From contig CATLPD010000005.1 of the NCBI GenBank assembly GCA_950054485.1, forward strand, positions 1 to 64,000: a stretch of DNA of 64,000 nucleotides, written 5' to 3'. The position numbers and the translations under genes are program-made. Shown in pieces: positions 2,431 through 48,525 of the stretch. The notes beneath the pieces are model-generated. The model saw nothing but the letters and a program-made list of their open reading frames with translations. It searched no databases and had not been told where the DNA came from. The DNA comes from an uncultured Alphaproteobacteria bacterium (GTDB lineage: Bacteria > Pseudomonadota > Alphaproteobacteria > Micavibrionales > CSBR16-224). Every line of letters begins with the position of its first letter. The first letter of the stretch is position 1.

Positions 2431-5400
2431 TTACAAAACCCCGCCAACGCCTTTAAATTTTTCGACAAAGGCAGATATTTTCTGAAAAACAGTTTGTTTT
2501 TTTGATAGGTATTGTGGATTCAGGGGACTCATCTTGGGTAATATAGAATTTAGCTCAGTTCCGTTTTCTGTCGCAAATTCTCGTTTAATAGATGTCATTA
2601 AATAGCGTTTTGCAGCTTCGGCATTTAGATTTTCAGTCTCAATTAACTCATTGGCTTCACGACTTTGCTCTTTTTGAGCAAAGGTGAAAAATGCGTCGAT
2701 TACACTTGCTTTATTCCCAAGCTCATCCAAGTCGGTCTGGTTAATGAAGTCAACCACTAAACTCTCTTTCGCGCGATTTCCTATGCTAGCTCTTATCATG
2801 CGGCGAACATCTTCAACCAATTTAGTTTTATCTTTTATCTTTTTATTTTTTTCAAAAATTTGCTCTAAAATATAATCCAGATTAATTTCTTGAGATTTTA
2901 AAAGGTCAACCTCAAAAACCACATCATCCCAGTCTATATCAGACGTTTCTTGTTCGTTTGCAGCCTTTTCTCGCCGTAACCAATCGCGGATATCATTATA
3001 AGTTGATCTGTAATCTTGTATTTTGCGTTCTGCCGGAATATTTATTGATTGCAGAGTATTGAGGTCCTCATCACTTAAATAATGCTTTGCTTTGAATTCT
3101 TCTACGGCCTTATTATCGCTTGTATCTATACTCTGTAAGGCTTTTAAGCTTGCAAATTCGTCATAATTCTGAAGAATATTCTCAACACGTAAATATTCAC
3201 CAAAGAGCTTTGCAAAGGCTTTCTTGTCAGATTCTTTGATAATATCCTCAGGATTGGGAAAACGCTGTTCTAGTTCAGTGACAACATCAATAAAGCCACG
3301 ACGAGCCTCACCCGAGGAAGCATCACTAAAGCCTTCCATATATTCTTTATAGCTTTTCTCTAAAACAACGTTTTTAGTATTGTTATCACCAAAAAGGGTA
3401 ATAGCGTCAATCGTCGCCTGTTCCAAATCACGGAAGGTAACGATATTACCAAAGGTTTTAGTGGCGTCATAAATGCGGTTTGTCCGTGAATATGCTTGCA
3501 TCAAACCATGATAACGAAGATTTTTATCAACAAACAAGGTGTTGAGTGTAGGGGCATCAAAGCCTGTTAAAAACATTCCAACAACAATCAGTAGGTCAAT
3601 TTCCTTGGATTTAACACGCTTGGCTAAATCTCGGTAGTAGTTTTGAAACCCATTACTATCGACGCTGAAATTAGTTTTAAAAAATGTATTATAATCATTG
3701 ATGGCAGCACTTAAAAATTCTTTGGCGCTACTATTCATCGCTGATACATCAAAACTTTCATCGGGAATTTCCCCAATAGCGTCCTGCTCTTCATTGGCAT
3801 TAAAAGAAAATATAGTGGCAATCTTAAGGGGTTTATCACTATTTAATTGTAGGTTGTTAAGCATTTCATAGTAGCATTTTGCTGCATCTACGCTATTAAC
3901 TGCAAACATTGCATTGAAACCTTTGTTTCCGCCTTGTAAGCGGTGAGTCTTTAGACGAAAATTGTTCAAAATATATTGGGATATCTCACGAATGCGTTCC
4001 GGATGCAGTAGGGCTTTTTTATTCTCAGCGGCGCTGAGCTTTCTCTCGTCTTGTTCGATTTCGAATTCTTTAAAGGATGGGCGTACATCATTGTAGTCCA
4101 CCTTAAACTTAAGAACTTTTTCATCACGAATAGCATCGGTTATCACGTATGAATGAAGCTCACGACCAAACACGCTGGCTGTAGTATCTGCGCCAAGAGC
4201 ATTTTGCGGAAAAATTGGCGTACCGGTAAATCCAAATTGATAGAAGCGTTTGAATTTCTTTTTAAGGTTTTTCTGTGCTTCGCCGAATTGACTACGGTGA
4301 CATTCATCAAAAATTAATACGACCTGTTTATTATAGACAGGCAGATCATTTTCACTTTTCATCAAATTATTTAGTTTTTGAATGGTGGTTACAATAATTT
4401 TATTGTCGTCTTTATCAATGTTACGTTTAAGCCCAGCAGTGCTATCCGAACCATTCACGCTATCAGGTGAGAATCGCTGATATTCTTTCATAGTCTGGTA
4501 ATCGAGGTCTTTTCGATCAACAACGAAAAAGACTTTGTCAATAAAATCAAGCTCGGTTGTTAAGCGCGCAGCTTTAAAACTGGTCAGCGTTTTACCTGAG
4601 CCTGTTGTGTGCCAGATATATCCGCCGCTGTCAGGATTGCTCCAGTTTTTTGCGAGATATGAGCTTTTAATCTTCCACATAATACGCTCAGTCGCGGCAA
4701 TCTGATAGGGGCGCATGACAAGCAAGGTATTGCTGACATCAAAAACGGAATAATGAAAAAGCACATTCAGCAAGGTGTTTTTCTGGAAAAATGTCGCGGT
4801 AAAATCCTTCAAGTCTTTAATCAGACTGTTGTCAGCTTTTGCCCAATTCATGGTGAAGTCATAGCTGTTTTTATTGCGCTGAGTCGTATTCGCGAAATAA
4901 CGTGTATTGGTTCCGTTTGAAATTACAAACAACTGCAAATATTTATAGAGCGAATTTTCGCTATTAAAGCTTTCTTTGCTGTAACGATGAATTTGGTTAA
5001 AAGCCTCGCGAATGGCGACGCCGCGCTTTTTCAGCTCAATCTGCACCAGGGGTAAACCATTCACTAAAATCGTTACATCATATCGATTTGCATGTGTGCC
5101 AGACTGCTCAAATTGCTTGATAATTTGTACTTTGTTGCGAGAAATATTGGATTTATCAACCAAATAAATATTTTGAATGCGCCCATCATCAAATACGAAA
5201 TCATGGATGTAATCATCATGAATTTTACGGGTCTTATCGACAATGCCGTCGCTGGGTTTATCTAGGAATGTTTCAACAAACCGCGCCCATTCTGCATCAG
5301 TGAACTGCACATTATTGAGGGTTTGTAATTGTGCCCGCACATTGGTCAGCATGGCATCTGGCGTTGTAAGATCGGGCAGGAATTCATAGCCCTGTTTGAC

Positions 5401-5532
5401 CAGATCGGAAACAAGCTCACGTTCCAAATCACCTTCAGATTGGTAACTATCAGCAACCGGCCATTCCTTGATATATTTATCAAGGACAATAAAGCGGTTT
5501 GATTCTGCGATGGGTTTAGTTTGTTGCTGCAT
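2431..5532 (-). CDS. hsdR: Type I restriction enzyme subunit R (HsdR)
   Basis: Motor and nuclease subunit of a type I restriction-modification complex. It translocates and cleaves unmodified DNA together with HsdM and HsdS. 1033 residues from the chosen start. An N-terminal PD-(D/E)xK nuclease shows D152 and the E166-L-K168 pair. The SF2 motor follows, with TTGSGKT at 309-315 (Walker A), DECH at 409-412 and FTGTP after it, then a helicase C lobe with FLTGFDAP and SRTNR. Codons in frame upstream give a longer frame, but AAGGAGG lies 6 bases before the ATG at 5532, so translation should start MQQQTKP there. This overlaps the 3' end of the ATPase gene by 17 bp and suggests translational coupling. 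Last gene of the hsd operon. Confidence 0.95.
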
Positions 5533-7135
5533 TTTCATCCTCCTTATACCAAGATCCATATTGATCCAAATTATCAAGTAAAAGCTTTACAGTTTGCTGT
5601 TGCGGTGGTGTTATCTCAGTAATCTCTTCATTAGACAGCTTTGAATGACTTAAGGAATTCATAAGAGCGATGTATGATTTCTTATTGCCTTCGACTGTAT
5701 CTAGTAAATCTGCCCAGTCTTTATAGCCTAAAAATGCTCCTGTCTTTTCATACAAGTTCCGCAACAATGTGAAATGATAGCGCTGTGCGGTGTTTTCTTT
5801 TATAGCCTTTTCAATCAATCCCTTAATATGCAGATGATAAGAAAACGCCTTGTTTGAACCGCCCTTTTTTTCTTCTAAATCATACTCATCTTCATTGAAT
5901 CTACTTAGGATATAACCGCTGTTAATGCCAAGTTGACTGTAAAGGACATTATAGAAGAAGGGGCTGTGTGTCGTTATAATAAATTTTAAATGATCTGGAG
6001 CATCTTTAATAAGTTTTGCCACATTTACAGCAAGTTCAATCAAGTGATTTTCATCAAGCGAGCTTACTGGGTCATCAATGAACACATATTTCAGTTCATT
6101 AAATTGATCTGTTTCCCGTTCCTCTGGGTCTACAATATTCAAAATATCAACCACTTGATTGAGCAATGTATAAAAAACACTCCATATAAAGTTGCTCTCT
6201 TCACCCTTTGATATTTTGATATGCGCCACACGTTCTCCAAGTGTGGTGGTCATTTCTTGTAGCTGTGTTTTGAGTTTTGAAAAAGTCACCTCAGAAAAGG
6301 CTGGCACCTTTATTTCTACTTCCTTCCCGTTCGGATCATTCTTTTTGTATTTATATTCTTCGTTAAACAGAGGAATGATCTTACTATTTGAATAGCGTTG
6401 GAAATTGGCGGCTATATTTTGATCCTGTCCTTGGTCTTTAAGAAAGGTCATTACCCAATAAGTAAAGCTATTTGGCTGGATTTTTAGTTTGGGTTCTGTA
6501 TCAAATTCCAAATCATTATCCCAGTAAAACAAGTCTTCAGTATGAGCATTGTAATAAAGAAATTTTTTACTGGATGGACCTGCAGATTCATCCTCACTTT
6601 TAGGGGCTATTATGTCTTTGAGAGCACGCGAAAGGCGAGTTTTGCCCGTACCATTAAAGGCATAAATCAACTGCACTTTTTTATTAGTATTCTTTAATTT
6701 ATGGGCAATCCCTGTGAGTGATTTTAAATAGCCCTCATAAAAATCAGAAATATCGCATTCCTTAACAGCCCAATGCCCCCTGTGAAACTCAAAATCATCT
6801 ATACCTAATTTTTGCTGATGCTCCTTTAAAATACCTCTGGTTAAAGGATAGTGGTCTTTGTCAAATATATACTTAGCGCGTAGGTTATTAGAATTAACTT
6901 TGATATCGGTAATTTTTCCAATTCTTGCATCAGCGACTTCATCCTCGACCGCAAAAATGGTTGGCAGGCTCTTGAGCTTATTTATTGCATCGTGGTCTAA
7001 GGTTTGAAATTGCCCTCTGACAGGGTCTTCCGTGTATTCTAAAAACCTGCTCAAAGGAATGTTGAATTCCCCTTGATCGCCTGAGTAAAAGCCAGGTACG
7101 CTCGCCATGATGAGGTTGTACAATTGACCGCTCAT
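5516..7135 (-). CDS. PrrC/RloC-like ABC-ATPase, candidate anticodon nuclease in the hsd operon
   Basis: 539 residues. Seen: Walker A NGTGKT at 161-166; an ISKGE signature-like motif at 308-312; Walker B with FIDDP at 352-356; D-loop SSLD at 358-361; and an H-loop TTH at 388-390. The C-terminal region contains R459-x3-E463 and H497. PrrC, the tRNA anticodon nuclease associated with type IC systems, uses an Arg-x3-Glu and a His about 32 residues later (Arg320/Glu324/His356 in E. coli); here the Glu-His distance is 34. The gene lies between hsdS and hsdR, the prrC position, and starts directly after the hsdS stop. About 150 residues precede Walker A, a module not expected in PrrC. If active, it would cleave tRNA when the restriction complex is inhibited. 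Alternative: an ATPase of the same superfamily with another effector. Confidence 0.65.
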
Positions 7136-8347
7136 CTACGCTGCTTCCTCCATAGGTTTGGATAAATTCAGCAATAAATCACGGTAATATTCGTATTGTT
7201 TTTGGCGCAGTTCAATTTCACGCGGAAGGCCTTCGCTTATGGAATTGGTCAACGCATCGAATTTATCGAGAATGACAACGATCCTTTCTTTTTCTTTCAA
7301 TGATGGATCGGGAATGCTTATGATTTCTAAATTCTTTTTATTCAATTTTGGTTGGGCTGCACCAGAAATATACGGTGTCAGGTCAATACTATTAAGATAA
7401 TATTCAACGAACTTTCGTTCCGCATACGTTTCAAATTCAAGCACATGGGCATGATTGTTAACCCAGTTTTTACCGCTAATGCTAAATGCTATAGGGGTGT
7501 TTCTGGCTAATAGATTTGCTCCATCTTCAGACACAAGCAAATAATTGCCATCAAAAATGTAATCTTTAACGTAGTCTACGATGCCAGACGCACCATAATA
7601 AGGTATTTCCCCAGGTTCTCGCAAGCGGCTGGTGATTGGTTTACGCTTTGAGTCTAGGTTTTTAGAAAGTTCACCGAGCGGCTTGAAGCTGACATTAGTG
7701 TCATCGGAAAAAGTGAGGAGTTGGTCACGGTAGTAGTTGTATTGTTTTTTGCGGGCTGTAAGCTCGGCTGTAAGCTCGGCTTTAAGGGCGGTAAAAGCGT
7801 CCAGAATCCGCACAATCTCGGCCTGTATCGCTAACGACTTTTCCGGATCGTCAGGGCATGGGATTGGGACTAGGTGCTCCTCCATTTTACTTTTGCGGAT
7901 TGATGGCACAGCCCCTGAATCATTAGCCAAAGTGCTCAGATTTATTGTTTGCATCCAATAAAAAAGAAAGCGAGACATAACCTTTTCATTCGGTATCAGT
8001 CCCATAACGTTATTATCATAGGCGGATGACGATAATAGGACGCGTTTCTTGTTTGTCGCAACTGCAGCTCCAATTTTCGGAAAAATTATTGTTCCTGCAG
8101 GCGCTGGAGAGATGCCAAGTTTTTTTATGACTTCATCATCAATATAGTTATTAGCTCTATCCATCATTGTTTCATTACCAACGATATTCATGTCGCTAAC
8201 TTTATAGAATGGATATATTCCTTCAGATTTCCCTTGATAGGCATTTGGAAATCCCCATCCACTCCGAACTTCAGAGATTTTTCTTAACGGCAGCCACTCA
8301 ACGTCTGCACCATCCAAAAGTTTTTCTAAAAAATTGGCCTCGCTCAT
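7136..8347 (-). CDS. hsdS: Type I restriction-modification specificity subunit (HsdS)
   Basis: DNA-recognition subunit that sets the target of both methylation and restriction. 403 residues with the classic two-fold layout: target-recognition domain 1 (about 1-170), a central conserved helix (about 172-212), target-recognition domain 2, and a C-terminal conserved helix. The central helix has [20 protein letters not shown] followed by KQYNYYRD, and the C-terminal helix repeats the theme with LDKFDALTN and KQYEYYRD. The TAEL repeat in the spacer is the type IC (EcoR124) hallmark; its copy number sets the gap in the bipartite target. The start overlaps the hsdM stop by 4 bp (ATGA), and the TAG stop directly abuts the ATG of the next gene. 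Confidence 0.93.
7754..7789 (-). repeat. 12-bp tandem repeat in hsdS spacer helix (TAEL repeats)
   Basis: On the plus strand GGCTGTAAGCTC occurs twice in tandem (7754-7765 and 7766-7777), followed by a degenerate third unit, GGCTTTAAGGGC. Each unit encodes four residues of the AEL-T repeat in HsdS (about 189-198). In EcoR124-type enzymes, gain or loss of one such unit changes the spacing of the recognition sequence, so this is a possible specificity-switching site. Confidence 0.8.
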
Positions 8348-9891
8348 GCATTGATCTCCGCAATGATGGCATCGATATCGGTGCGGAGCTTGGTGATGTT
8401 TTTCACCGTAGCATCGATATCGGCATTTAGTTTAACAATATCGGTCTTTTCCCGCTTGTCTTCTGGTTCAATATACGAACTTACCGACAGATTATAATCA
8501 TTGGCGACGATTTTATCATATGGAATGCTTTCGGCAATGTGATCAACTTTTTCTTTGCTATCAAACATATCCATGATGCGCTGGATATGGTCATCATACA
8601 TCACGTTATTATTGGTTTCTTTTTTGAAGAATTTTTCCCCGCTGGCATCAATAAACTGGATATCCGTGTTGGGTTTGTTTTTGGCAAGTACCAAAATGGT
8701 CACGGCGATAGTTGTGCCGTAAAACAGATTAGGCGCCAAGGAAATGATCGTTTCAACATAATTATTATCGACCAGAAATTTACGGATTTTCTGTTCCGCC
8801 CCGCCACGATAGAAAATACCGGGGAAGCAGACAATCGCCGCACGGCCTTTGCTGGATAGATAGCTAAGCGCATGAAGGACAAAGGCAAAATCCGCCTTTG
8901 ATTTTGGTGCAAGCACGCCCGCAGGGGCAAAACGGTCATCATTAATCAGGGTCGGATCGTCAGAGCCAATCCAGCTCACCGAATATGGCGGGTTGGAAAC
9001 AATAGCATCGAACGGTTTATCATCACCGAAATGCGGATCAATCAGGGTATTGCCCAGCTGGATATTGAATTTATCGTAGTTGATGTTGTGCAAGAACATA
9101 TTCATGCGGGCAAGGTTGTAAGTGGTATGGTTGATTTCCTGCCCGAAAAAGCCTTCTTCCACGATATGTGCATCAAAATGCTTTTTGGCCTGCAATAGTA
9201 ATGACCCAGAACCACAGGCAGGATCATAGATTTTATTCACCTTGGTTTGACCATGCATTGCCAACTGTGCGATCAGCTTTGATACATGTTGCGGGGTAAA
9301 GAATTCACCGCCTGATTTACCGGCATTGGCGGCATAGTTGGAAATGAGGAATTCATACGCATCACCGAACAGGTCAATTTGAGATCCGTGGAAATCGCCA
9401 AACTCTAAATCCGCTACACCTTTAATGACGGAGGCAAGGCGTGAGTTTTTGTCTTTGACTGTATTACCAAGGCGGTTGCTGGTGGTATCAAAATCGGCAA
9501 ACAGGCCTTTGATATCTTGCTCTGATGGATAACCGTTAGCCGAAGCCTCAATCTCGGCAAAGATTTTGGCAAGGTCAGTATTCAGGCTTTCGTTAGTGTT
9601 GGCAGTTTTGGCAATATTAACAAAAAGCTGACTTGGGTAAATAAAATAGCCTTTAGTTTTGATGGCATCATCTTTAATTTCAGGGGTGATAACGCTATCG
9701 GCAAGCTGGGCATAGTTGATGCTGTCATCATCGGCTTCGATATAGCTGGCGAAATTTTCGCTTATAAAACGGTAAAATAGCGTGCCAAGGACATATTGCT
9801 TAAAATCCCACCCATCAACCGCACCGCGCACATCATTGGCAATTTTCCAAATTTGACGCTGTAGCGCATCACGCTGTTGTTTACCTGTCAT
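8344..9891 (-). CDS. hsdM: Type I restriction-modification methyltransferase subunit (HsdM)
   Basis: N6-adenine DNA methyltransferase of the type I complex, using S-adenosylmethionine to protect host target sites. 515 residues: an N-terminal HsdM helical domain (about 1-150), then the catalytic domain with the FFTPQHV entry motif at 197-203, DPACGSGS at 223-230 (motif I, AdoMet binding) and NPPY at 300-303 (motif IV, catalysis), and a C-terminal helix for HsdS contact. First gene of the four-gene minus-strand operon. AAGGG lies 7 bases before the ATG. Codon use is closer to the core genes than that of the first 2 kb. Confidence 0.95.
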
Positions 9892-10082
9892 AATTAGCCC
9901 TTATTTTTTATAAATCTCTTTAAAAAGAAAATCATTTTACAGGCCTTTTAGCAACTATTTATTCTACAAACAACTTGATATCCATACACATAGCAAGCTA
10001 ATCTACTGATGTGAATGCGGTTTTGCGTATTCGCCGGGGCTTTGTAACCTCGTGCATAGCGGTTGATATCACCGTTAATGGT
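9892..10082. other. Divergent intergenic region between hsdM and the leader RNA
   Basis: AT-rich near hsdM, then mixed. It must contain the hsd operon promoter (minus strand) and probably the leader RNA promoter (plus strand), but I see no convincing -35/-10 pair for either. A small dyad, CACC-GTTAAT-GGTG, lies at its right end. A 61-residue minus-strand frame here has no features of a gene. Confidence 0.4.
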
Positions 10083-10219
10083 GTCGCCTTTCGATCTCTC
10101 TATTGAGACCGGGAGGCGACGATGTATGTCCAAGCCTCGCGGCCGAAAGATCGTCGCGGTTGTCTATGCACAACTTACAAACTCCCGGTCACCAGAGCAT
10201 TTAAGCCTGGTGACTTTTT
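10083..10219 (+). ncRNA. Structured leader RNA or small RNA ending in an intrinsic terminator
   Basis: Several perfect pairings can be read. GACCGGGAG (10107-10115) pairs with CTCCCGGTC (10182-10190). GCGACGAT (10116-10123) pairs with ATCGTCGC (10150-10157). GTTGT (10159-10163) pairs with ACAAC (10170-10174). GTCACCAG (10188-10195) pairs with CTGGTGAC (10207-10214) and is followed by TTTTT. GTCGCCT (10083-10089) can instead take AGGCGAC (10114-10120), and the terminator stem shares GTC with the outer stem. Such mutually exclusive pairs are the pattern of an attenuator. The T-run ends 9 bases before the Shine-Dalgarno of the lipoprotein gene. It matches no riboswitch class I know; a free-standing small RNA is the alternative. 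Confidence 0.6.
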
Positions 10220-10241
10220 GTTTATAAAAAGGAGTTATCAA

Positions 10242-10526
10242 GTGAGAAAATTTTTAATACCAATAATTTCAATTTTGGCGCTTTCGGCATGTGGTACAAT
10301 TGAAGTACATGATGAGGCGAATGGTATTAAGCGTATAGAGCACCACGGCGCAGCAATTCTTTCTACTTCCCCAGAAGCTGCTTATGCTCACCGTGAAACG
10401 CAAGAGGGTATGAAAATCACTGCCTACAAGGCGTGTCCGAGCGGGTACAGCTTAATTAAAGAGCAATATGTAGCTAAAACTGATAATAGCGATGATATGC
10501 TCGTTTGGTATGTGAAATGCACATAG
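10242..10526 (+). CDS. Small lipoprotein
   Basis: 94 residues, chosen to start at GTG 10242 because AAGGAG lies 7 bases upstream and because it gives a textbook lipoprotein signal: a basic N-terminus, a hydrophobic stretch, then the lipobox LSAC. The mature part is small, with two further cysteines (KACPSGY and YVKCT) that may form a disulfide. An upstream in-frame ATG at 10122 would extend the frame through the leader RNA but buries the signal peptide, so it was rejected. Probably attached to the outer or inner membrane in the periplasm. Function unknown. Confidence 0.7.
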   Translation: MRKFLIPIISILALSACGTIEVHDEANGIKRIEHHGAAILSTSPEAAYAHRETQEGMKITAYKACPSGYSLIKEQYVAKTDNSDDMLVWYVKCT

Positions 10527-10620: not shown

Positions 10621-11304
10621 ATGGTTGAATATACACGAGGACAAACTGAATTTGCTTTAATGTCTCATTTTTTAAATGGGCAAAATGGCGCTGGCTTAAC
10701 AAAGAAAAAATTAAAAACACGAGCAAAACGGCTGTTAGAGTTAGATAGTGCTATGTCGGAAAGTGAGAATCTTCCATGCGCGTTCGTGACAGAAAACAAA
10801 GGGGCTCAGGGGAGTGCTCGTGTTTTTTTATACGAAAATATTTTTAATATTGGACTTGGCCTTGAATTACTAGATGCAGGATTCAAGCAAAGTGAAGTTG
10901 TCTTTCTGCTCCAACATTCTCAAGAAATTTTATATACGGCAGCACGTAGGATAAAAAAATATCCTAATGCTTTCCGTCAGGTCGTATCCTCAGCCGATTA
11001 TCCCGACCTTCCCAAAGACATGAAAGACAGCAACCTTGCAGATTTAAGGGCGTTCTTTCTATTCCAACGCCTGGATAGGCCGAATTTGGTAAAAGGTAAA
11101 AAAGCTCCTTTGTTTTTGTTGCCCAAAATCTGCTTTGGTATTGTGAGTCTTGCCAGTGAAATCAACGACATTTCCTACAGCCAATCAAAAGCCACAATTG
11201 TTGAGCTGGGAAATTTGGGCATATCCTTGAACAATTATTTAAAGCAAGCTCCTGAGATCAAGCGTGGACGTCCTAAAACAGAAGGGCATGATGACATTAA
11301 ATAA
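10621..11304 (+). CDS. Hypothetical protein of mobile module
   Basis: 227 residues, no family recognised. No signal peptide or membrane segment, so cytoplasmic. It is basic near the N-terminus (LTKKKLKTRAKRLLELD) and C-terminus (IKRGRPKTEG, an AT-hook-like RGRP motif that may touch DNA). AAAGGGG lies about 8 bases before the ATG. Its 3' end overlaps the methyltransferase gene by 14 bp, so the two are probably co-translated. The context (ParB-methyltransferase, DUF5681, recombinase) suggests a role in the biology of the mobile element. Confidence 0.65.
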   Translation: MVEYTRGQTEFALMSHFLNGQNGAGLTKKKLKTRAKRLLELDSAMSESENLPCAFVTENKGAQGSARVFLYENIFNIGLGLELLDAGFKQSEVVFLLQHSQEILYTAARRIKKYPNAFRQVVSSADYPDLPKDMKDSNLADLRAFFLFQRLDRPNLVKGKKAPLFLLPKICFGIVSLASEINDISYSQSKATIVELGNLGISLNNYLKQAPEIKRGRPKTEGHDDIK

Positions 11305-12601
11305 AGATTTTAAGCATTTGGGCAAAGGTTTGAAAATTGATTATTACACATGTGATAATTTAAAGCCCTACAAGAATAACCCGCGAACACATAGCGCTAA
11401 ACAAATTCGTCAAATTGCTAACAGCATTAAAGAGTTTGGTTTTACTAACCCCATATTAATTGACGGCAGTCAAAATATTATTGCCGGGCACGGCCGGGTC
11501 GATGCTGCGCGCTTGCTTGGGCTTAAGACTGTCCCAACAATTAATTTATCCTATTTATCTGATGTTCAAAAACGGGCTTATATTATTGCAGATAATAAGT
11601 TAGCGGAAAATGCCGGGTGGGATTTTGAGCTTTTACAATCTGAGATATTGACAATTTCAGAAATGGACTTGAATTTTGATTTAACATTAACTGGCTTTGA
11701 AGTATCTGAAATTGATAAATTTCTATCGCCTGACGAAGTTGATGAAATGTATAATCAAATTCCAGAATCTCCGGTAGTGCCAGTTTCAAAGCTTGGTGAT
11801 GTTTGGCATTTAGGTGACCATACTATTTTTTGCGGGGATGCTACAGATAAGCAGTCATATGACCGTTTAATGGATTTTGATGTTGCGCAAGCTGTTTTTA
11901 CTGATCCCCCGTATAACGTAAAAATTAATGGCCATGTTTGCGGAAACGGAAAAACACAGCATGATGAATTTAAAATGGCATCTGGTGAAATGTCAGAAGC
12001 TGAGTTTACCCATTTTCTCCAGTCCGTGCTGTGTAATCTAAAATTATTTTCAGCGGATGGCTCCTTACATTACATTTGTATGGACTGGCGGCATATGAAG
12101 GAGCTCATAACTGCCGGGTCTGTTTATACAGAATTAAAAAACTTGTGTATTTGGAACAAGAGTAACGGCGGTATGGGCTCTCTTTACCGCTCTAAGCATG
12201 AGCTTGTCTTTGTTTATAAAAATGGCAGGGCGGCTCATGTTAACAATATTGAACTTGGCAAACATGGAAGATACCGGACAAATGTTTGGGACTATGCCGG
12301 TGTGAATACATTTCAAAATAATAAAGACCTTGAGCTGCATCCAACAGTTAAGCCGATAGCAATGATTGAAGACGCTATTCTAGACTGCACAAAACGCGGC
12401 GATATCGTACTTGATGTTTTTGGCGGGAGTGGCAGTACTTTGATTGCGGCAGAAAAGTGCGGACGTAAAGCCCGACTTATGGAGCTTGATCCAAAGTATG
12501 TAGATGTAACCATCCGACGTTATCAAGATGTAACTGGAAGAATAGCCATTCATGAAAATGGTCAAACATTTGAAGAAGTAAGGGAGGTTTGTCGTGTCTG
12601 A
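11291..12601 (+). CDS. ParB-like nuclease domain fused to DNA methyltransferase
   Basis: 436 residues. An N-terminal ParB/Srx-type domain (about 15-110) contains IAGHGRVDAARLLG with the GHGR motif at 66-69. A beta-class DNA methyltransferase follows, with DPPY at 205-208 (catalytic motif) before FGGSGS at 377-382 (AdoMet-binding motif). It should methylate adenine N6 or cytosine N4; which cannot be told from sequence. Such fusions are common in phages and integrative elements and may protect element DNA. ATG 11291 is preferred: AAGGG ends 4 bases upstream, whereas the neighbouring ATG at 11288 is too close. The gene overlaps the next one by 8 bp. Confidence 0.88.
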   Translation: MTLNKDFKHLGKGLKIDYYTCDNLKPYKNNPRTHSAKQIRQIANSIKEFGFTNPILIDGSQNIIAGHGRVDAARLLGLKTVPTINLSYLSDVQKRAYIIADNKLAENAGWDFELLQSEILTISEMDLNFDLTLTGFEVSEIDKFLSPDEVDEMYNQIPESPVVPVSKLGDVWHLGDHTIFCGDATDKQSYDRLMDFDVAQAVFTDPPYNVKINGHVCGNGKTQHDEFKMASGEMSEAEFTHFLQSVLCNLKLFSADGSLHYICMDWRHMKELITAGSVYTELKNLCIWNKSNGGMGSLYRSKHELVFVYKNGRAAHVNNIELGKHGRYRTNVWDYAGVNTFQNNKDLELHPTVKPIAMIEDAILDCTKRGDIVLDVFGGSGSTLIAAEKCGRKARLMELDPKYVDVTIRRYQDVTGRIAIHENGQTFEEVREVCRV

Positions 12602-13064
12602 TAATGAAGAGTATAAAGTTGGCTATGGCAAGCCCCCTGAAGAACATCAATTTAAAAAAGGTCAGTCAGGTAATCCAAGCGGGCGTCCAAAAAGAAAACG
12701 TATGCGTTTTGCTGAAGATATTTCTGAAATATTTATGAGAAGTTTGAACGAAGAAATTGAAATAAATTTTGGTGGAATATCGCGTAAAGTTACCTCATAT
12801 GAGGCAATAATTCTCAGGTTAAAGGCAAAAGCTTTAAAGGGAAATTCTAAAGCTCTTAAACTTTATTTAGAGCTCGCGCAAAAAGCAGCGAATGAAGAAA
12901 AGTCGCATTTTCAAGATATCAACGAAACGATTTATAAATTGACAGACGCTCTTGAAAATAATTCAGATGAAGAATTTGAGAAAAAATATGGTTTTCCTAA
13001 ATCGGTGGGCAAAATGATGCACGATTCACTTACTGAAAGTGAAGAAGAAAGGTTTGGATTATAA
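12594..13064 (+). CDS. DUF5681-like protein
   Basis: 156 residues starting at GTG 12594, 6 bases after a strong AAGGGAGG and overlapping the methyltransferase stop. The N-terminus has GYGKPPEEHQFKKGQSGNPS then GRPKRKR, the signature of DUF5681 proteins found beside phage-type methyltransferases and terminases. The rest is helical and charged. The biochemical role of the family is not established; a DNA-binding helper of element packaging or transfer would fit the neighbours but is inference. Confidence 0.75.
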   Translation: MSDNEEYKVGYGKPPEEHQFKKGQSGNPSGRPKRKRMRFAEDISEIFMRSLNEEIEINFGGISRKVTSYEAIILRLKAKALKGNSKALKLYLELAQKAANEEKSHFQDINETIYKLTDALENNSDEEFEKKYGFPKSVGKMMHDSLTESEEERFGL

Positions 13065-13121: not shown

Positions 13122-13520
13122 ATGGAATATTTAGAAAAATTACCAATCAATATTTTACGTGCACGTTGGGAGGGGCTTTGGCAAACAGACGCGCCTCAGC
13201 GCATGGGTAAAACGATGCTTGTTAAAAGTATTGAATATAAAAAGCGAGAGCAGAGCGGCGCGGGGTTAACAGCCGAACAGAAAAATCAGCTGGGCAAACT
13301 AATCAAACACTATCAGCGGAATCCAAAAGCTTTTGATCCGGGCCGCGTTTTAAAGCCCGGCACAAAACTGATCCGGCATTATGAAGGACAGAAACATATA
13401 GTCACAGTTCTAGAAGACGGCTTTGAATATAATGGACAACAAGCTTCTAGTCTCTCGAAAATTGCTAAAGAAATTACAGGCACAGCATGGAATGGGTGGA
13501 CATTTTTTAGAGCCTCTTAA
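13122..13520 (+). CDS. DUF2924 family protein
   Basis: 132 residues. The layout is that of DUF2924: an N-terminal helix with LPINILRARWEGLW, a GLTAEQKNQLGKL segment, then a beta-rich half with KPGTKLIRHYEGQKHIVTVL and a C-terminal SLSKIAKEITGTAWNGWTFF. The second half resembles a small recombinase-associated DNA-binding or sensor fold. DUF2924 genes are regularly found directly upstream of large serine recombinase genes in alphaproteobacteria, and that pairing is present here, interrupted by the inverted cassette at 13517-14729. The start follows AAGGAGC by 6 bases. Confidence 0.85.
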   Translation: MEYLEKLPINILRARWEGLWQTDAPQRMGKTMLVKSIEYKKREQSGAGLTAEQKNQLGKLIKHYQRNPKAFDPGRVLKPGTKLIRHYEGQKHIVTVLEDGFEYNGQQASSLSKIAKEITGTAWNGWTFFRAS

Positions 13521-14755: not shown

Positions 14756-14787
14756 TGGACTTCCTGCCGAAAGGAAGCGTGTATAGA
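14756..14787 (+). repeat. 32-bp element, copy 2 (before recombinase gene)
   Basis: Direct copy of the element at 13070-13101 (25 of 32 matches, no gaps). Here the centre forms CTTCCT-GCCGAA-AGGAAG, a 6-bp stem. It ends four bases before the recombinase ATG at 14791. Both copies lie just before the start of a plus-strand gene, so they could be regulatory leaders, recombination sites, or both. Confidence 0.65.
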
Positions 14788-14790
14788 CGT

Positions 14791-16311
14791 ATGACGAATA
14801 CGCCCCAGAAAAAAGTTTGCGCGATTTACACCCGAAAATCAACAGATGAGCGGTTGGATATGGAGTTCAATACGCTGGATGCCCAACGTGAGGCTTGCGA
14901 GGCATATATTCTCAGCCAGCGATCTGAAGGCTGGCAATCCAATGCCGAAGAATATGATGACGGAGGTTTTTCCGGTGGCAACCTTGATCGTCCGGCTTTG
15001 AAGAAACTTCTGGAAGATATTAAGGCTAGCAGGGTGCAAATAGTGGTCGTTTATAAAATAGACCGGCTGACACGATCACTAATGGATTTTTCAAAGCTAG
15101 TCGATATTTTTGACGAGCACGGCGTTACATTTGTAAGCGTCACACAAAGTTTCAACACCACAACCTCCATGGGGCGATTAACGCTAAATGTGCTTTTATC
15201 CTTTGCCCAGTTTGAGCGCGAGGTGGCCGGAGAGCGCATCCGCGATAAAATTGCGGCCAGTAAACGCAAAGGGATGTGGATGGGTGGTGCGCCGCCAGCG
15301 GGTTACCGGATTGAAAACCGTCAGTTGGTAATTGAAGAGACTGAAATTGAATTGGTGCGTTATATCTTTGACCGGTATTTAAAGCTTGGGAATGTTCGTG
15401 ATTTAAAGCATGAGCTCGGCCGCAAAAACATCACAAGCCCCAAGCGGATATCCCAAAAAGGCAAACCGTATGGTGGACAGCCATTCTCAAGAGGGGCGCT
15501 GTATGCACTTTTAAAAAATCCGGCCTATGTTGGCAGAATATCCCATAAAGGAAAAATTCACGATGGTCTGCATGAGGGGATTGTTGAGCAAGAGGTTTGG
15601 CAGAGCGTTCAAAAAATGCTGAAAGATAATGCGGTAAACCGAAGCGAGACTGTACAAAGCAAGCATCTGCTTCAGGGCTTGATTTATGATCCGGACGGGA
15701 CAATATATAGCCCTACATATACGAAGCGTCATGGGCGGCAATATCGTTATTATATCTCGCAAAACTTGTTGCAATACAAAGATCATCCTAACGGAATACT
15801 GGCCCGATTACCCGCTCATGAAATTGAAGCGCTGGTAGAAAAAACATTACGGCAGGAAATTCCCAAGTTTTGTTATAAACTGGATGCAAATATACAGGGG
15901 CATATATCAATCCAACATAACAATATTCCCGGCCATGACTTAATTCGGCTTTGTTTAAAGAAGGTGACGATTGGGCTTGAAGAAATAATTCTGCAAATCC
16001 AGCCGGAGCCTTTTGCAGAATTAGCTTTAAAATATTTGAACCTCAATATATCCGGACTTGGAAAAAACTATGATGTGTCCGTACCCTTTAAGCTTAAGAA
16101 AGCCCAACGCGGCGCATTGGTCATAGAGCCTGAGGGCGAAAAGAATATTTTTGATCTGCCGCCATCCGGTTTGAAAAAACTTGTGCAGGGTACCATCTGG
16201 CGAGAAGAACATTTTGATGGCATGGCCCTTAAGGCAATTGCAAAGCGTGAAGGTTGTTCTGAAGCCTATGTTGGCACAGCTATCTATCAAAGCCTGGACC
16301 TTGGCAGCTGA
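14791..16311 (+). CDS. Large serine recombinase
   Basis: 506 residues. Catalyses site-specific integration and excision through a 5'-phosphoserine DNA link. The resolvase-type catalytic domain (about 8-150) shows YTRKS with Ser17 as nucleophile, DRLTRS, and the FERE...GERIRDKI segment. The recombinase domain follows, with KNPAYVGRISHKG, then the LLQGLIYDPDG and YRYYIS segments of this family. The zinc-ribbon cysteines of many large serine recombinases are absent. ATG 14791 is preferred over GTG 14779, which abuts the AAGGAAG ribosome site. Likely responsible for mobility of the module from about 10.1 kb to here. Downstream TTCCCTG repeats may belong to its terminator or attachment site. Confidence 0.93.
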   Translation: MTNTPQKKVCAIYTRKSTDERLDMEFNTLDAQREACEAYILSQRSEGWQSNAEEYDDGGFSGGNLDRPALKKLLEDIKASRVQIVVVYKIDRLTRSLMDFSKLVDIFDEHGVTFVSVTQSFNTTTSMGRLTLNVLLSFAQFEREVAGERIRDKIAASKRKGMWMGGAPPAGYRIENRQLVIEETEIELVRYIFDRYLKLGNVRDLKHELGRKNITSPKRISQKGKPYGGQPFSRGALYALLKNPAYVGRISHKGKIHDGLHEGIVEQEVWQSVQKMLKDNAVNRSETVQSKHLLQGLIYDPDGTIYSPTYTKRHGRQYRYYISQNLLQYKDHPNGILARLPAHEIEALVEKTLRQEIPKFCYKLDANIQGHISIQHNNIPGHDLIRLCLKKVTIGLEEIILQIQPEPFAELALKYLNLNISGLGKNYDVSVPFKLKKAQRGALVIEPEGEKNIFDLPPSGLKKLVQGTIWREEHFDGMALKAIAKREGCSEAYVGTAIYQSLDLGS

Positions 16312-17023: not shown

Positions 17024-17098
17024 TGGCTGGGGTGGCAGGATTCGAACCTGCGCATGGCGATACCAAAAACCGCTGCCTTACCGCTTGGCTACACCCCA
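17024..17098 (-). tRNA. tRNA-Gln (anticodon UUG)
   Basis: A full cloverleaf can be drawn: acceptor TGGGGTG with CACCCCA; D-stem GCC/GGC; anticodon stem GCGGT/ATCGC around the loop TTTTGGT (anticodon TTG); T-stem GCAGG/CCTGC with loop TTCGAAT; discriminator G and an encoded CCA. 75 bases. The 3' end points toward the island, the expected side for integration at a tRNA. Confidence 0.95.
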
Positions 17099-47657: not shown

Positions 47658-48356
47658 ATGGCAAAAGCAGGAAAAAGAATTCGCAAAATCCGTGAAGGTC
47701 TGGATCGTACGACAACCTACAATCTGACAGACGCGGTAAAATCAGTTCAGGAATTTTCGAACACGAAATTCGACGAAACTGTTGAAATTTGCATGAACCT
47801 TGGCGTTGACCCGAAACACTCGGACCAGATCGTCCGCGGTATGGTTCAATTGCCGAACGGTACAGGTAAAACAATCCGCGTTGCGGTTTTTGCGCGTGAT
47901 GCAAAGGCTGACGAAGCCAAAAAGGCCGGCGCTGACATCGTCGGAGCCGAAGACCTGATGGAATCAATTCAAAAGGGTAACATGGATTTTGATCGCGTTA
48001 TTGCGACACCTGACATGATGCCATTGGTTGGCCGTTTGGGTCAGGTTCTGGGTCCGAAAGGCCTGATGCCGAACCCGAAACTGGGTACGGTTACACCTGA
48101 TGTTGAGAAAGCTGTTAAAGCTGCCAAAGGCGGCGCTGTTGAATTCCGTGCTGAAAAAGCCGGTATCGTACACGCTGGTGTTGGCAAAGTCAGCTTTGGC
48201 CAGCAGAAGCTGGAAGAAAATATCCGCGCATTTGTCAGTGCTATTGTGAAAGCAAAGCCATCAGGCGCGAAAGGTACATACGTTAGAAAAGTGACTCTGA
48301 CATCTACAATGGGCCCAGGCCTGAATGTTGATGTTGCGGATGCAACTGCAGCGTAA
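47658..48356 (+). CDS. rplA: 50S ribosomal protein L1
   Basis: 232 residues. L1-stalk protein and, in many bacteria, repressor of its own L11-L1 operon. [31 protein letters not shown] and the C-terminal [17 protein letters not shown] are the family marks. Full length. Confidence 0.98.
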
Positions 48357-48361
48357 GTAAT

Positions 48362-48389
48362 TTTGTCCGGTTGTTAAAAGCCGGACAAA
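48362..48389 (+). terminator. Stem-loop after rplA
   Basis: TTTGTCCGG and CCGGACAAA form a 9-bp perfect stem around a 10-base loop. There is no T-run after it, so partial termination or processing between the L11-L1 and L10-L12 parts is likelier than full termination. Confidence 0.55.
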
Positions 48390-48525
48390 TGTTCCTGTCC
48401 AAGACTACAGGTGCCCAAAAGATTTTTAATTCAAGGGTTTAAAATTGGCCTGTATAGATAGTGGAATAAAGAGTTAAAAGACGTTTATCGCGTTTCAAGA
48501 CTTTGATTTCCGGGCAGGGTCGTAA

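Follow-up and report, generated by a model that had tools for sequence, protein, structure and literature searches.

A leader RNA of about 205 nt, located at approximately 10012–10219 of the analysed 64,000-nucleotide stretch of DNA (the window), is very probably a module of the sRNA-Xcc1/C4 type. We slightly favour the combined reading that it is a C4-type antisense module from the sRNA-Xcc1 branch and that it acts to down-regulate the next gene. The extent of the unit is derived from an alignment of homologs. The first-pass annotation had placed the element at 10083–10219, which covers only part of the unit; the stems described there are real, but the 5′ half at about 10012–10062, which forms long-range pairs with the core, was missed. 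The unit is composed of a sigma70-like promoter, a 5′ arm containing a1 and b1, a three-stem core, and an intrinsic terminator, followed by the small gene. Its features are listed below, with pairing given as the percentage of cells in the alignment of homologs.

9975–10004 (+), sigma70-like promoter identified by eye, with TTGATA at 9975–9980, an 18-nt spacer, and TAATCT at 9999–10004
10013–10032 (+), 5′ hairpin with a sequence that varies among homologs, GAATGCG/CGTATTC in the computed fold
10036–10051 (+), a1 hairpin, stem paired in 94.6% of cells, with the a1-like arm TTTGTAA in the loop (10041–10047)
10054–10059 (+), b1-like arm GCATAG, which pairs with b′ at 10164–10169
10065–10085 (+), hairpin HT (10065–10070/10080–10085), 98.9% paired, with double changes in five of its six pairs
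10083–10120 (+), alternative hairpin of 11 bp (10083–10093/10110–10120), paired in 98.2% of cells over 46 homologs
10107–10190 (+), sRNA-Xcc1-like core, recognized from a match to RF02221, our own model, and covariation
10107–10115/10182–10190 (+), P1, outer stem of the core
10116–10123/10150–10157 (+), P2, inner stem of the core, with strands GCGACGAT and ATCGTCGC
10134–10136/10141–10143 (+), P2b, in the core
10159–10163/10170–10174 (+), P3, in the core
10164–10169 (+), b′, in the P3 loop
10175–10181 (+), a′, in the P3/P1 junction
10126–10227 (+), possible micro-ORF inside the core, of doubtful meaning, with an AUG 9 nt after an SD-like GGGAGG
10188–10219 (+), intrinsic terminator with the stem 10188–10195/10207–10214 (GTCACCAG/CTGGTGAC) followed by TTTTT at 10215–10219
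10231–10242 (+), Shine-Dalgarno (SD) region GGAGTTATCAAG, partly complementary to the a′/P1 3′ strand at 10174–10185 (CTTACAAACTCC)
10242–10526 (+), lipoprotein ORF of 94 residues with a GTG start (MRKFLIPIISILALSACG...), with a signal peptide and lipobox visible in the sequence

A promoter scan chose the same −35 box as that identified by eye, but with a 16-nt spacer and GCTAAT, and the site at 9975–10004 is absent from the list produced by a stricter consensus promoter scan of the window. In 41 of 55 units, the best promoter-like −10 box ends 24–33 nt 5′ of the GGGG of the a1 hairpin. Hairpins at the position matching 10013–10032 can be recognized by eye in homologs, and the P1 c4-a1b1 model likewise has one there. 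Hairpin HT occupies the position of the U-tract hairpin in the leaders of phage P1 C4 and sRNA-Xcc1, and is crossed by an additional stem (10060–10062/10072–10074; 95.6% of cells paired). The core of the window copy starts with GACC, and those of homologs mostly with GGCC or GACC. A GGTC/GACC hairpin immediately 5′ of P1 was weighed as a conserved feature and rejected, because homologs, as judged by eye, do not keep it.

The fold had been described in the first-pass annotation as fitting no known class; however, its core matches the sRNA-Xcc1 family. In a search with relaxed thresholds, RF02221 (sRNA-Xcc1) aligns over its full length (model positions 1–87, no truncation) at 10107–10198, with a score of 35.9 bits against a cut-off of 53 and E-values of 9e-5 in a 411-nt search and 1.2e-4 genome-wide. 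The genome contains six such sub-threshold matches, the best of which scores 46.7 bits, so that the 53-bit cut-off is not reached. At Rfam cut-offs there is no match at this locus and no riboswitch family at the gathering threshold in the window; neither a riboswitch family nor C4 (RF01695) matches 9890–10300 at E up to 5, and isrK (RF01394) has no match in the window. Our own model, R1, which was built mainly from the window's subtype, assigns 85.7 bits to the window copy, a member of its training set. R1 finds seven copies in this genome, and 78 of the 103 genomes of the host's order carry one or more. It also recovers classic loci of sRNA-Xcc1 and places them correctly (L121, E 3.8e-6; L134, 2e-4). 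The subtype is common in the order of the window and occurs also in Verrucomicrobia and some other Proteobacteria; it is present in named genomes of Verrucomicrobia, Sneathiella, Gammaproteobacteria, and Magnetococcales, and on a plasmid of Sphingobium yanoikuyae.

Several candidates were discarded. A match on an X. citri plasmid (H4), which had seemed to be a relative, turned out to be a short chance match, and seven pattern matches in coding-like sequence (L044, L057, L060, L066, L091, L092, and L094) are due to chance. A blastn search with two members found no match in close phage records, and viral contigs yielded only three pattern matches, one of which is due to chance. A group II intron, an HDV-like ribozyme, and a guide RNA (bridge or omega), which the anatomy had suggested, had no support from Rfam and were dropped once the C4 layout emerged.

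The computed folding energy of 10040–10225 is −72.4 kcal/mol, compared to a mean of −49.4 kcal/mol for shuffled sequences (z = −5.3; none of 200 shuffles equals it). Covariation, which had been suggested as a check of the fold, is strong in 46 homologs. It was counted over 46 distinct units and 48 pairs, including two long-range pseudoknot contacts. In this pseudoknotted fold 98.0% of cells are paired, 342 cells are compensatory against a shuffle mean of 97, and 27 of the 48 pairs have changes on both sides. The covariation score is 0.477, compared to 0.199 after shuffling (0/500) and at most 0.095 when the partners are slid. Stems P1, P2, P2b, and P3 pair in 97–100% of cells (P1 98.3%, P2 100%). 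The first pseudoknot contact, a1–a′, joins 10041–10047 to 10175–10181 and is paired in 98.8% of cells, with four pair types at each of its three variable middle positions. The second, b1–b′, joins 10054–10059 to 10164–10169 and is paired in 94.5% of cells over 46 loci; all six of its pairs vary on both sides, and nearly all positions show all four Watson-Crick types. In the window, TTTGTAA is perfectly complementary to a′, and GCATAG to b′. It is most improbable that the unit is a mobile-element relic that keeps its structure without a function. The window copy does lie near a recombinase and other mobile-element genes, and the lipoprotein is nearly an orphan; however, 342 compensatory cells and 98% pairing over wide taxa need ongoing selection.

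The organization of the unit corresponds to that of the C4 immunity leader of phage P1. The record of phage P1 contains, in order, the target sites a1 (48255–48261) and b1 (48269–48276), the C4 RNA (48343–48419), the target sites a2 (48423–48429) and b2 (48452–48459), icd (48470), and ant. The a1 sequence of the phage, TTGACAG, is positioned in a hairpin loop, and b1 (GTTAGTGC) overlaps GCGG. The GCGG hairpin of phage P1 with its U-tract is TTGCGGTATTTTTGTG; many sRNA-Xcc1 leaders have TGCGGTATTTTTGTGCC. In the phage core, as in the window, b′ is found in the loop of P3 and a′ (CTGTCAA) forms the P3/P1 junction. With C4 and the c4-a1b1 leader of phage P1 (RF01695, RF03163) the window unit shares the succession of promoter, 5′ hairpin, a1 loop, b1, GCGG hairpin, three-stem core with its b′ loop and a′ junction, and gene; the distance from core to start codon is about 50 nt in both. 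By contrast, the window lacks a2 and b2, has a terminator in their place, and carries a lipoprotein gene instead of icd and ant. Phage P1 scores 68.8 bits with the Rfam C4 model (RF01695); however, there is no cross-match, as the C4 model misses the window and R1 misses phage P1 C4. The isrK model (RF01394) spans the leader of phage P1 with a1, b1, and the U-tract hairpin, at 35.1 bits, which is below its cut-off. The Rfam clan CL00128 comprises C4, c4-2, and c4-a1b1, and no clan is shown for sRNA-Xcc1. In phages P1 and P7, RNase P cleaves the C4 RNA at the 5′ end of the P1 stem, the loops of C4 mask the ribosome site, and a′ and b′ set the specificity (PMC5320573).

The sRNA-Xcc1 was discovered in Xanthomonas campestris as an RNA of 88 nt, the ends of which were mapped (PMC2996969); this is the length of the Rfam model that starts at the P1 stem. 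It has been discussed as being controlled by HrpG/HrpX and linked to symE cassettes (PMC12444791), and it is associated with Xylella vesicles (PMC12189769). Matches above the cut-off occur in 35 of 299 sampled Pseudomonadota genomes, and 28 such loci were read for layout. In these loci an arm upstream of the core is complementary to both the loop of P3 and the P3/P1 junction, and many of them carry a repeat of this arm in the ribosome-site region of the next gene. For example, L132 has the arm GCTGCAAACCCCAAACACAAG, the core CTTGTGTCGGTTTGCAA, and the ribosome site TGCAAAGGAGACACAAGCCATG. When loci were permuted, the match of the core to the upstream arm gave z of 9.0 for a′ and 4.2 for b′ (1/5000), and that to the ribosome site of the next gene gave z of 7.3 and 8.8 (0/5000 each); a whole-region test of the core–ribosome-site match gave z −7.4. 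The genes that follow include P22_AR_N, KilA-N, Bro-N, two Rha, and SymE. Because their arm, core, and ribosome-site layout match those of phage P1 immI, sRNA-Xcc1 may be read as a C4-type antisense RNA, a reading of shared layout and pairing logic and not of established common descent.

The unit in the window resembles these classic loci in its P1/P2/P3 core and in the pairing of an upstream arm with the loop of P3 and the P3/P1 junction. It differs from them in the interior of P2, which is UAUGUCC/AAAG in the window subtype and AAUACAA/AAUA in sRNA-Xcc1, in that the arm is not repeated at the ribosome site, and in the terminator after the core. The alternative hairpin is conserved in the window subtype, whereas in classic sRNA-Xcc1 loci it is not locus-specific (692/5000). 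One classic locus with a Bro-N gene (L118, 379–742) is situated less than 1 kb from a tmRNA gene, a common integration site. Another (L125, 2890–2958) has a sub-threshold match to c4-2 RNA 1.3 kb away.

The second set of target sites has been lost in the window's subtype. Within about 440 nt downstream, 10 candidate a2/b2 copies were found over all subtype loci compared to 11.6 expected; copies of a1 or b1 elsewhere near the gene are not above chance, and the match of b′ to the ribosome site is not significant (z 1.1). With a2, b2, and a b′ match to the ribosome site all missing, it cannot be taken for granted that the subtype uses the classical C4 mechanism. The SD region could instead pair with the a′/P1 3′ strand through AACTCC/GGAGTT and CTT/AAG (−10.2 kcal/mol). 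Over 41 terminator-type units, the match of this strand to its own SD beats that in permuted loci (z 3.2, 10/5000); by longest-run scoring it is not significant (543/5000). The complementarity lends weak, suggestive support to a masking of the SD by the a′/P1 3′ strand.

The loss of local a2 and b2 would also suit a small RNA acting in trans, in which case the RNA of about 205 nt or about 84 nt would hit other copies or incoming elements through a′ and b′, as in C4-like superimmunity, and the gene would be an expression passenger. The seven copies in the genome, the unit's own promoter and terminator, the mutually unrelated downstream genes, and the variation of a′ and b′ between loci, as in C4 where specificity depends on them (PMC5320573), are consistent with such a role. 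However, nearly all units that passed the filters have a sense ORF soon after the terminator, with the start codon at a median of 52 nt after P1 in subtype units. In the window the interval from terminator to SD is too short to hold a promoter, and the next gene can therefore be read only through the unit. This favours a role in cis, and near matches to a′ and b′ of the window are at chance level, with no convincing trans target among them. We consider the action in trans unlikely.

The segment 10114–10123 can pair in two ways, as had been proposed: 10114–10120 (AGGCGAC) with 10083–10089 (GTCGCCT), and 10116–10123 (GCGACGAT) with 10150–10157 (ATCGTCGC). The complete alternative hairpin excludes the core stems P1 and P2 together with the last three pairs of HT. 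Its variation is mostly one-sided, through wobble pairs, and its covariation support is therefore lower than that of the pseudoknotted fold. Both mutually exclusive states are conserved. The terminator is 98.6% paired over the 46 homologs, with double changes in three pairs; a simple terminator scan of the window does not list 10188–10219 because the loop exceeds the limit of the scan. The three bases that the outer stem was said to share with the terminator are exactly 10188–10190, the last three of P1 and the first three of the terminator, and they are the only ones shared. Their middle pair in P1 fails in 7 of the 46 units, and both the P1 and terminator stems are conserved. Since the overlap is limited to three bases, a strong antitermination effect is not obvious. 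The T-run (10215–10219) does precede the ribosome site, ending 11 bases 5′ of the GGAG (10231–10234) of the ORF at 10242. In four Verrucomicrobia units (L045, L068, L084, and L113), a different hairpin lacking a long T-run takes the place of the terminator.

The first-pass annotation saw in this region the pattern of a riboswitch or attenuator, or possibly a small RNA. A leader, an attenuator, or a small RNA was right in kind, and the structured leader with exclusive stems and a terminator is confirmed, but nothing found suggests a metabolite-binding riboswitch. A ligand riboswitch or protein-sensing attenuator, in which a metabolite or host factor would bind the knotted core with its invariant UAUGUC/AAAG and shift the balance between P1 and the alternative hairpin with the terminator, is improbable. 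It would account for the very high conservation of the unpaired core bases, the two conserved exclusive folds, and the overlap of the terminator with P1. However, the downstream genes (lipoproteins, GYF_2, Mrr_cat, HNH, GIY-YIG, zinc ribbons) have no common pathway, the variable and fully compensated contacts of a1 and b1 with a′ and b′ typify antisense specificity and not a ligand pocket, and the related loci are of the C4 type.

The AUG that follows the SD-like GGGAGG (10111–10128) lies within the conserved UAUGUCCA of the core, and this well-spaced pair occurs in essentially every subtype unit. Ribosomes loading at GGGAGG in P1 and AUG in P2 could translate MSK..., melt P1, and alter termination. 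Such translation-coupled attenuation is still less probable than ligand sensing, because neither frame nor stop is kept, the length of the P2b loop varies out of frame, and the AUG is absent from classic sRNA-Xcc1 cores. The micro-ORF, beginning M-S-K/R, is 6 codons long in 32 of the 58 units; in the others its length ranges from 4 to over 60. A conserved leader peptide was rejected for the same loss of reading frame.

Considered by its mechanism alone, the proposal that the unit is a C4-derived attenuator and ribosome-site-masking leader has about even chances. The unit's own promoter would produce the leader with the arm a1/b1, the three-stem core, and the terminator. Most transcripts would end at the terminator, giving the RNA of about 205 nt, and a possible cut at the 5′ end of the P1 stem would release a C4/Xcc1-like RNA of about 84 nt. 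Read-through would produce the mRNA of the downstream gene, the ribosome site of which would be masked by the a′/P1 3′ strand. The arm would occupy a′ and b′ and compete for them, and the alternative hairpin (10083–10120) would compete with P1 and P2, and hence with the three bases shared by P1 and the terminator; this competition would determine the frequency with which the gene is read. We infer the processing, the direction of regulation, and the signal that would flip the states from this anatomy. More tentatively, a C4-derived RNA may have been rebuilt as a portable attenuator in front of unrelated accessory genes in Proteobacteria and Verrucomicrobia, having lost a2 and b2, kept the pairing with its own arm, and gained a terminator and a competing hairpin, with sRNA-Xcc1, a family described in print as a virulence regulator, in the same superfamily and regulating the neighbouring antirepressor or SymE gene.

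If this is true, sRNA-Xcc1, discussed as a virulence or vesicle-borne RNA of plant pathogens, gains a testable C4-type function on the next gene, and the C4 layout is far from confined to phage antirepressors, with seven copies in one small genome and a presence in 78 of 103 genomes of one order. One and the same fold would then span control from antisense repression to termination, a natural series open to experiment. The comparison shows a fold of the C4 type that is re-used, together with a terminator, in different phyla, and the element flags small accessory genes that are perhaps worth screening for defence or exclusion functions.

The lipoprotein has no match in Pfam, PHROG, or PADLOC, and 142 genomes of the order contain a single distant homolog with 33% identity. 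That lipoprotein homologs might lack the element had been named as grounds against it. The sole homolog is indeed preceded by coding sequence without a match to the RNA model; this refutes a fixed RNA–lipoprotein pair but not the element, because the RNA precedes many unrelated genes. The cargo of the subtype includes lipoproteins, zinc-ribbon membrane proteins, GYF_2 (4), Mrr_cat (3), HNH, GIY-YIG, and DUF4268 proteins, and several PADLOC candidate defence families. In Verrucomicrobia a GYF_2 domain often begins the gene behind the RNA, as in four members (L045, L068, L084, and L113). Homologous proteins of about 312 residues (MTRKTFTKARYIKLG.../TGRYIKLGSGGRWENLC...) are encoded directly behind the RNA in L061, L069, L071, and L112, and are a recurrent cargo; the carriers are Sneathiella and a Legionellales MAG, and a 325-residue protein (L036) appears related by eye.

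The description of the RNA as a leader before a mobile-element gene was borne out, and the segment 10242–17098 of the window is probably an integrated element. The surrounding genes are the following.

2431–9891 (−), type I restriction locus, with hsdM at 8344–9891, hsdS at 7136–8347, and an hsdR-like gene at 2431–5577
5516–7135 (−), AAA_13-domain gene between hsdS and hsdR
11264–12601, ParB-domain DNA methyltransferase, downstream of the RNA
12594–13064, DUF5681, downstream of the RNA
13122–13520, DUF2924, downstream of the RNA
14779–16311, serine recombinase, close to tRNA-Gln
17024–17098, tRNA-Gln

Another copy in the same genome (L002) has a DUF5681-like ORF nearby, as judged by eye. The order of the hsd genes with the AAA_13 gene recalls prrC/rloC-type anticodon nuclease loci, a resemblance only. 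A Micavibrio aeruginosavorus assembly (L093) contains tandem units 278 nt apart (3715–3747 and 3993–4025), and five clustered copies of sRNA-Xcc1 have been described in Xylella (PMC12189769); therefore, tandem arrays recur.
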